From Gemmatimonadota bacterium (lineage in GTDB: Bacteria > Gemmatimonadota > Gemmatimonadetes > Longimicrobiales > Gaopeijiaceae), in the NCBI GenBank assembly GCA_003248075.1, contig QJYK01000102.1:1-62181 (forward strand): a stretch of 62,181 nt of DNA, read 5' to 3'. Under the pieces are notes generated by a model, which saw only the letters and a program-made list of their open reading frames with translations, searched no databases and was not told where the DNA came from. Shown here one piece after another: positions 14,479-16,274 of the stretch. The translations under genes were made by a program, and so were the position numbers. Numbering within the stretch: position 1 is the stretch's first letter; every line of letters begins with the position of its first letter.

Positions 14479-14799
14479 TCAGGCCTCCCGGCCGCGGAGC
14501 GGGCGATCCCCAAGCTCCGCGGGCTCCCTGGTCGTCTCGATGCCGAGCGCGTTGGCGAAGCCCAGCAGTGCGTCCTCGAGGACCGACATCTTCACCCGGT
14601 AGAGAATCACCCGCCCGCTCTTCTCCGCCTCGACGAGTCCCGCCTCCTGAAGCACGGAGAAGTGGGCCGACATGGTGGGCTTCGAGAGCGGGAACCGATC
14701 GGCCAGCTCCCCGGCCGTCATGGCGCCGCCGCGGAGCAGCTCCAGCACGCGCCGCCGCGTCGGGTCTGCGAGCGCCTTGAACACCCGGTTGCTCGTCAT
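14479..14799 (-). CDS. ArsR-family repressor, SdpR-like
   Basis: A 106-residue winged-helix regulator. It opens with NRVFKALADPTRRRVLELL, the standard ArsR start, followed by the recognition helix region LSKPTMSAHFSVLQEAG and the wing EKSGRVILYRV. No metal-binding Cys pair is seen, which fits the SdpR/aromatic type rather than metal sensors. Its ATG overlaps the stop of the SdpI-like gene by 4 bases (ATGA), so the two proteins are translationally coupled. By analogy with SdpR/SdpI of Bacillus, it probably represses its own operon; the perfect palindrome at 15454-15479 on the operon promoter is the likely binding site. Downstream there is no further gene on this strand until 14191. Confidence 0.92.
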   Translation of the reverse strand: MTSNRVFKALADPTRRRVLELLRGGAMTAGELADRFPLSKPTMSAHFSVLQEAGLVEAEKSGRVILYRVKMSVLEDALLGFANALGIETTREPAELGDRPLRGREA

Positions 14800-15449
14800 G
14801 GTGTCCGCGCGGTGGGGCCGGCGTTCATCCAGACGATCGCGCCCAGCACGATCAGCAAGAGACCCACAGTCACCCAGCGAGCGAGCGTGCGTGCGACGCC
14901 GACGGGTAGCGTCAGGAAGGCCAGCGCGAGCACGAGGCCCTCGATCACCATCGCCCTGCCCAGGAACCGACGGGCGGAGGTCACCCGTTCGGCGAGATGA
15001 ACGGGAAGCAGGGACAGCGGCGTCAGGATCTTGGGCACCGCGTTGCCGATGACGATGAAGACCGCGCTCGCCGCGAGGCCCAGGACGCGGCGCTCCCCGT
15101 CGAGGTTCGGGCGATGATCCCCGAGCCGAACCCAGAGCTCGAAACCGAAGCGCGTGGCCTGCACGATCCCGAGCGCGAGCACGATCAGCGTGAGCGCGGA
15201 GAGGAAGTAGCGCTCGGTGGCCGTTTCCCCGGCCTCGCTCGGACCACGACGTGATCGACGCCAAGCGTTCCAGAGCGTCGGGCCGAACCAGAGCAGGGGC
15301 AGGATGAGCAGGCCCCGGAGCCAACGCAGCGCCTGCTCCGGGCTCAGGATCCAGTTCACGCCCGCCAGGAGCGCAACCAGAAGGACGATCAGGGTGGCAG
15401 ATTCGCGCCGACGACCGACATGCGCGATTACCGGAGTCTGGGGTTCCAT
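14796..15449 (-). CDS. SdpI-family membrane protein
   Basis: A 217-residue protein with about six membrane segments. The SdpI signature is visible as VIVIGN-type text (FIVIGNAVPKI), the GN..PK motif of that family, preceded by a segment with VLGLAAS. In Bacillus subtilis, SdpI gives immunity to the SdpC toxin and sequesters the SdpR repressor; here a toxin gene is not visible nearby, so the role is open. The ATG at 15449 sits only 4-5 bases after the predicted transcription start, giving an almost leaderless message, and has no Shine-Dalgarno. The longer open frame to 15908 runs antisense-like through the YbjQ gene and is not credible. The stop overlaps the ArsR start. Confidence 0.9.
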   Translation of the reverse strand: MEPQTPVIAHVGRRRESATLIVLLVALLAGVNWILSPEQALRWLRGLLILPLLWFGPTLWNAWRRSRRGPSEAGETATERYFLSALTLIVLALGIVQATRFGFELWVRLGDHRPNLDGERRVLGLAASAVFIVIGNAVPKILTPLSLLPVHLAERVTSARRFLGRAMVIEGLVLALAFLTLPVGVARTLARWVTVGLLLIVLGAIVWMNAGPTARTP

Positions 15450-15453
15450 GATA

Positions 15454-15479
15454 ATTCGATGTTTAGCGAAACATCGAAT
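15454..15479. promoter_or_regulatory. 11-bp perfect inverted repeat, likely ArsR operator
   Basis: ATTCGATGTTT at 15454-15464 and AAACATCGAAT at 15469-15479 are perfect inverted copies with a 4-base centre. The AT-rich palindrome stands out from its GC-rich surroundings and covers the spacer and -10 of the promoter for the SdpI-ArsR pair, as expected for autorepression by the encoded ArsR protein. Confidence 0.85.
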
Positions 15480-15488
15480 CTTTGTCAA
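15460..15488 (-). promoter_or_regulatory. Sigma-70-type promoter of the SdpI-ArsR operon
   Basis: On the minus strand a consensus -35 box TTGACA (15488-15483) is followed after exactly 17 bases by TAAACA (15465-15460). The -35 box overlaps the TGA stop of the YbjQ gene (15487-15485). The predicted start of transcription is near 15453, only a few bases before the ATG at 15449. Confidence 0.75.
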
Positions 15489-15955
15489 TCGCCGACGACA
15501 TTTCGTGAGATCGCCGTCCCGTACGCCAGGATCTCCACGCCCGCGGTGCCCTTGCCGTCCGGACGCTGGCTCGCGAGGCGCGATGTCTCGATCCTCACGT
15601 TGATGATCGTGTCGTGCCCGCGGGCGCGAGCCTCGCCCTTCATGCGGACCAGGGCCTCGCGTCGGGCCCGCTCGAGCAGCGGCTCGTAGACGCCGATCGT
15701 GCCGCCCACGATGCCCTTGAGGGAGGCCGCGACGCGCTTGAAGTAGTCCTGGGAGATCACGACGTTGCCGAGCACGAGGTCGCTGGACACCACCTGCCAC
15801 TCGGCAGGGATGTCCTCGATCGTCAGCGCGAGGATGTCGCTCGATCCACTCTCGAGCAGTGCGAGCCGCGCGAAGTGCCGACGTTCGATGATCGTGCCGG
15901 TGATCCATGCTCCCAGCAGCATCGCCGGGGTGATCGCGTAGATCAGCAGCTCCAT
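15485..15955 (-). CDS. Membrane-anchored YbjQ/UPF0145 protein
   Basis: A 156-residue protein with one N-terminal membrane segment (MELLIYAITPAMLLGAWITG) and a C-terminal YbjQ-like domain (PF01906). The domain shows VLGNVVISQDYFKRVAASLK, the GGTIGVYEPLLERARREAL helix, and the DTIINVRIETS strand; family members form pentameric rings of unknown function. It starts 4 bases after the stop of a second YbjQ gene, so the pair is an operon and probably a duplication of which this copy gained the anchor. Its stop codon is inside the -35 box of the next operon. No metal-binding residues are obvious. Confidence 0.88.
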   Translation of the reverse strand: MELLIYAITPAMLLGAWITGTIIERRHFARLALLESGSSDILALTIEDIPAEWQVVSSDLVLGNVVISQDYFKRVAASLKGIVGGTIGVYEPLLERARREALVRMKGEARARGHDTIINVRIETSRLASQRPDGKGTAGVEILAYGTAISRNVVGD

Positions 15956-15959
15956 CGGG

Positions 15960-16274
15960 TTACTCCACCGTGACCGCTGTGCCGTACGCGAAGAGCTCCG
16001 CGGCGCCCTGTGCGACGCTACTCGTGGCGAAGCGCACGTTCACGATCGCGTTGGCGCCCATGCTCTCGGCCTGATAGCTCATCCGCCGGATCGCCTCACC
16101 GCGAGCCTCGGTGAGCAGCTCGGTGTATCCACGTAGCTCACCGCCGACGACGTTCTTGAGCCCCGCCATGATGTCCTTGCCGATGTGCTTCGCGCGCACC
16201 GTGCTCCCGCTCACCACCCCGTGGAACTTGACGATCGACTTCCCGGGGATCTCCTGCGTGTTGCTGATCAGCAT
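15960..16274 (-). CDS. YbjQ/UPF0145 family protein
   Basis: A 104-residue soluble YbjQ protein (PF01906): PGKSIVKFHGVVSGSTVRAK, then KDIMAGLKNVVGGELRGYTE, the helix LTEARGEAIRRMSYQAESMG and NAIVNVRFATSSV. Length fits the family (about 100-110). The ATG at 16274 (MLISNTQEIPGK) matches family N-termini; a longer open frame upstream to 16406 is rich in Arg and Pro and not homologous. It heads the two-gene YbjQ operon and is divergent from the PadR gene at 16480. Function of the family is unknown; heavy-metal binding has been suggested from fold alone. Confidence 0.9.
   Translation of the reverse strand: MLISNTQEIPGKSIVKFHGVVSGSTVRAKHIGKDIMAGLKNVVGGELRGYTELLTEARGEAIRRMSYQAESMGANAIVNVRFATSSVAQGAAELFAYGTAVTVE

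Follow-up and report, generated by a model that had tools for sequence, protein, structure and literature searches.

How a two-gene ArsR cassette is controlled when a palindrome, a putative promoter and a start codon lie directly against each other is the question raised by positions 15454 to 15488 of contig QJYK01000102.1, from a Gemmatimonadota bacterium (assembly GCA_003248075.1). The window analysed here is the whole stretch of 62,181 nucleotides of this contig. We consider it probable that the cassette is an autoregulated two-gene switch, in which an SdpR-type ArsR repressor would act on the promoter dyad and an SdpI-like membrane partner would serve as sensor. It represents a widespread and apparently undescribed variant of the SdpR/SdpI switch; its gene order is unique to the window.

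Promoter-operator region and genes of the window

The features of the locus are the following:

15960..16274, minus strand: ybjQ1 (PF01906), upstream neighbour; from Pfam and comparison of relatives
15485..15955, minus strand: ybjQ2 (PF01906), upstream neighbour, kept in relatives that lack the cassette; from Pfam and comparison of relatives
15483..15488, minus strand: -35 box TTGACA, which holds the ybjQ2 TGA stop (15487-15485); from sequence and the TTGA position in relatives' elements
15454..15479, minus strand: operator dyad ATTCGATGTTT-CGCT-AAACATCGAAT, predicted binding site of an ArsR dimer; from sequence and the consensus of 84 elements
15459..15465, minus strand: -10 region TAAACAT, which falls within the right half of the dyad and has TAA(A/T)TAT as its counterpart in relatives; from sequence and column counts
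14796..15449, minus strand: SdpI-like membrane protein, 217 aa, with a GNAVPK motif; its gene comes first here and second in all relatives; from BLASTP and profile comparison
14479..14799, minus strand: SdpR-family ArsR repressor, 106 aa, without Cys; from Pfam and NCBIfam models and sequence

On the minus strand TTGACA (15488-15483) is followed after 17 nt by TAAACA (15465-15460), on a perfect inverted repeat with 11-bp arms (15454-15464 and 15469-15479) and a 4-nt loop, as an earlier note on this DNA had described. The element reads GATTGACAAAGATTCGATGTTTCGCTAAACATCGAATTATC-ATG, with the ATG at 15449. This start codon lies 4 bases beyond the repeat and no Shine-Dalgarno-like 4-mer was found upstream of it, in agreement with the near-leaderless geometry proposed in that note. 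Its term "consensus promoter" suits the -35 box, which is perfect, but is too strong for the pair, since TAAACA is a weak -10 that agrees with TATAAT at 3 of 6 positions and the TTGACA/TAAACA pair was not listed by a promoter scan of the window.

The repeat at 15454-15479 is the only perfect one with 11-bp arms and a loop of 10 nt or less in the window. First-order Markov simulations of the window yielded 0 to 3 such repeats, mostly 0, so that the repeat by itself is only moderately unlikely and it is conservation (see below) that secures the element. The composite promoter-operator pattern matched once in the window and not at all in 100 shuffles. The least credible of the explanations considered is a palindrome that arose by chance, combined with an assembly error that swapped the genes: simulations do sometimes produce an 11-bp repeat and the source assembly consists of 344 contigs, but 84 elements are conserved, both genes are intact, and the start codon of ArsR and the stop codon of the membrane gene share 4 nt (ATGA), which is the type of join found in relatives.

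The assignment of the repressor to the SdpR type, also made earlier, is supported by the NCBIfam SdpR model NF033789, which the ArsR protein matches with 103.4 bits against a curated cut-off of 100. Sensing of metal through an ArsR/SmtB-type CxC site was considered and rejected: the protein has no Cys and no CxC was found in the 84 relatives, which argues against a classical Cys-based metal sensor. A second ArsR gene lies on the contig (38635-38850, plus strand); its product is 44% identical to the ArsR of the cassette, and it lacks the operator of the latter.

A conserved element before the ArsR genes of relatives

A search of 394 genomes of the class with the ArsR sequence gave 5 close orthologs, and an ArsR scan of genome contigs gave 80 loci, distributed in Alpha-, Beta- and Gammaproteobacteria, Acidobacteriota, Planctomycetota, Zixibacteria, Gemmatimonadota and one record labelled Bacteroidota. 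The same element was near-universal among these loci, immediately 5' of the ArsR start codon. The consensus of the 84 different elements is TTGAC-N4..6-TTCGATGATTAGCTAATTATCGAA. In 80 of them a distance of 13 or 14 nt separates the dyad centre from the start codon, and in 74 TTGA lies 21-23 nt before the centre. The window departs from this spacing, its ATG being 17 nt from the dyad centre, which counts against the explanation that we prefer. Pairing of the arms reached a mean of 8.8 out of 12 pairs at the centre, compared with mostly 2-4 pairs at neighbouring offsets and 6.5-6.8 at plus or minus 4. The arms also covary: the count of pair 12 was reached by 0 of 2000 shuffles and that of pair 6 by 8 of 2000, in shuffles that ignore relatedness.

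The element could also be found by its DNA pattern alone. In the 394 genomes of the class there were 5 matches, all of this locus type (1 with the reversed control); in the genomes of relatives, 26 matches in 25 of 30 genomes (control, 2); and in 200 genomes of the Caulobacter order, 32 matches (control, 1). Among the fetched elements with an open frame behind them, 56 of 57 preceded ArsR, and the remaining one was that of the window, which precedes the membrane gene. The earlier note had suggested a search for the same palindrome before SdpI-ArsR pairs; in the 84 relatives the element stands before the ArsR gene.

The operator pattern occurs once in the 5.6-Mb genome of the window, a single copy that fits autoregulation; by these pattern counts the element is one-target and its predicted role autoregulatory. 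A wider regulon was rejected on the same single copy and on the extra copies in relatives. One Caulobacteraceae genome (G422) carries two separate elements, at L060 and L118, each before its own ArsR gene, and cross-talk between them is possible. One further second site of the pattern was present in G547. A good element at about position 1500 of L220 lacks a gene start in the next 30 nt, and a small secreted-looking frame starts some 90-110 nt downstream; the element may be an operator without a gene or mark a second target.

Translation signals differ between the two genes of the relatives. None of the 84 relatives has a Shine-Dalgarno-like 4-mer within 20 nt upstream of the first gene, versus 69 of 84 with one before the overlapping second gene, which supports autorepression of a leaderless mRNA. 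Judged by the position of the -10 region, transcription in relatives would be expected to begin on the start codon itself, and in the window about 3-4 nt ahead of the ATG.

An experimental precedent for the operator position is the ArsR autorepressor Rv2034 of Mycobacterium tuberculosis, whose footprint, CCGTAAGT-CTAA-ACTTACGG, ends 3 nt before its GTG (PMC3338718). As in the cassette, the palindrome arms are split by 4 nt and lie against the start codon, with the centre about 13 nt away (PMC3338718). Unlike the cassette, Rv2034 has the half-site CCGTAAGT and also regulates other genes, e.g., dosR, and the part of the report that we consulted describes no SdpI-like partner for it (PMC3338718). 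Among the papers that we searched, none united leaderless, autorepressor and ArsR, and in none was TTAGCTAA found as an ArsR operator. In other ArsR paralogs of the class (L026, L027, L029, L033-L036) a different dyad, ATTTAGAC-N-GTCTAATAGAC-N-GTCTAA, is conserved close to the start codon or a short way ahead of it, which suggests that these operators form a related family.

The membrane partner and its predicted role in the switch

In nearly all relatives a membrane gene with a GNxxPK or ANxxPK motif lies directly behind ArsR, usually with a 4-nt overlap. This partner family was found through the ArsR neighbours and not by searches with the window membrane protein, which gave no relatives in the genome contigs and only weak matches in the genomes of the class. 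In direct BLASTP comparison the window protein matched the partners with E values of 8e-18 (Caulobacter partner, L083) and 6e-14 (L047). Profile comparison of the partner family with true SdpI from the same relatives gave 96.5% (E 8e-10) over the C-terminal half and placed the partner GNxxPK on SdpI GNFLPK, against 0.4% or less for decoy profiles (one reversed, five column-shuffled). The C-terminal half of SdpI is the half that binds SdpR in B. subtilis.

Relationship to SdpI is thus the part of the earlier label "SdpI" that stands; membership in the Pfam family does not. The partners of relatives scored at best about 16 bits with PF13630 (SdpI), whose cut-off is 28.2. The window protein had no match in Pfam, not even to SdpI, and no significant one in NCBIfam, and the best PF13630 match in its genome (13.6 bits) lies elsewhere. 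By these comparisons the partner is SdpI-related, yet outside PF13630 by the cut-off of this model. The partner family also lacks the RTPWTL segment of true SdpI, which, together with the score below the Pfam threshold, makes a different function possible.

Such a function is the basis of another explanation, which we regard as unlikely although worth weighing: the ArsR autorepressor on the dyad would itself sense a small ligand or redox state, and the membrane protein would be an effector, such as a transporter or an envelope protector. Most ArsR proteins respond to ligands directly, and this, the missing RTPWTL and the small size of many partner proteins (only 124-140 aa) speak for it. Against it are the lack of a Cys-pair metal site and the association of the membrane family with the repressor across phyla, along with its profile relation to SdpI.

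In Bacillus, SdpI holds SdpR and relieves its repression (PMC1626106). The cassette resembles B. subtilis sdpRI in that one operon encodes an SdpR-family ArsR together with a polytopic membrane protein whose family is profile-related to SdpI. It differs from sdpRI in its predicted leaderless promoter-operator architecture, in the features of the partner given above and in having no sdpABC-like toxin genes adjoining it, as judged from the neighbouring genes only. The same relatives also carry canonical SdpR-SdpI pairs (L158-L161, L163, L164), in which, as in the cassette of these relatives, ArsR is followed by an overlapping membrane gene; unlike in the cassette, their ArsR proteins fall on separate branches of the tree and their partner is a true PF13630 SdpI with RTPWTL. 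Three of the canonical sdpR loci, of Alphaproteobacteria (L160, L161 and L164), present TTAG/CTAA repeats that follow a TTGAC- or TTGC-like box and precede the start codon by a few bases.

For the autoregulated switch that we prefer, the steps would be as follows. A dimer of the ArsR encoded downstream would bind the 24-26 bp dyad, as conservation strongly suggests. The dyad extends over the spacer and the putative -10 region as far as the predicted transcription start, so that bound ArsR would block RNA polymerase. With the repressor off, the geometry implies that transcription would start no more than about 4 nt from the ATG; the first gene would be translated from a leaderless or near-leaderless mRNA and the second by coupling at the ATGA overlap. 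By analogy with Bacillus, the SdpI-like protein would be the sensor: on an envelope signal it would hold ArsR at the membrane and thereby derepress its own operon.

The predicted switch is nearly unchanged across distant phyla, where it is repressor-first, and a promoter-embedded operator may be general for the SdpR family. To our knowledge, SdpR/SdpI-type membrane-to-promoter signalling is almost unstudied outside Bacillus. A 2025 paper describes SdpI as the only characterised member of its family (PMC11995493). As a DNA signature, the conserved element allows such switches to be located from the pattern only, and from it the precise operator and the start of transcription can be predicted. 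In culturable species (Brevundimonas, Massilia, Dyella and Sphingomonas) it makes directly testable whether an autorepressor can control a leaderless mRNA from a promoter-embedded site and what the GNxxPK membrane proteins sense.

Gene order, origin of the cassette and its ybjQ neighbours

The reversal of gene order relative to Bacillus sdpRI, which is repressor-first, had been pointed out earlier and extends to every relative examined: the order is ArsR followed by the membrane gene in all relatives with a partner found, and the window alone has the genes swapped. Because of the swap, the operator sits on the membrane-protein gene rather than on the repressor gene. The membrane partner would then take the leaderless first place and the repressor would be the coupled second gene, an arrangement that may alter the partner:repressor ratio. 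The swapped genes offer a natural test of the importance of gene order.

The closest neighbour of the window sequence in the ArsR tree came from Vicinamibacterales; support for this was weak and the branch long. This placement and the patchy spread of the cassette suggest horizontal transfer. We propose, only tentatively and with more doubt than confidence, that these cassettes, spread over several phyla, are a class of their own: horizontally mobile membrane switches with a single target, whose operator, -10 box and start codon are merged into about 45 bp so that the repressor controls its own leaderless mRNA, and that the swap in the window resets the sensor:repressor ratio to a lower threshold.

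The ybjQ1-ybjQ2 pair, with variable C-terminal tails, was also present in same-family relatives that lack the cassette, so the cassette lies flush behind ybjQ2 in the window, and the stop codon within the -35 box is a product of this junction. The stop noted earlier inside TTGACA is present in the window, but a functional overlap was rejected as it is absent from relatives.

It is very improbable that expression comes mainly from ybjQ read-through and that the dyad is an RNA hairpin or terminator behind ybjQ2. The dyad does begin 6 nt past the ybjQ2 stop and the genes run head to tail on one strand; however, relatives have the same dyad without an upstream ybjQ, the dyad is missing from the ybjQ pairs of 14 relatives, a scan showed no terminator-like site, and conservation extends to the -35 box and to the spacing from the start codon. 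A terminator or hairpin role was rejected on the absence of a T-run and on the relatives without ybjQ. Within the family the tandem ybjQ genes (15485-16274, minus strand) are conserved as a pair, and the second encodes a hydrophobic segment at the N-terminus.
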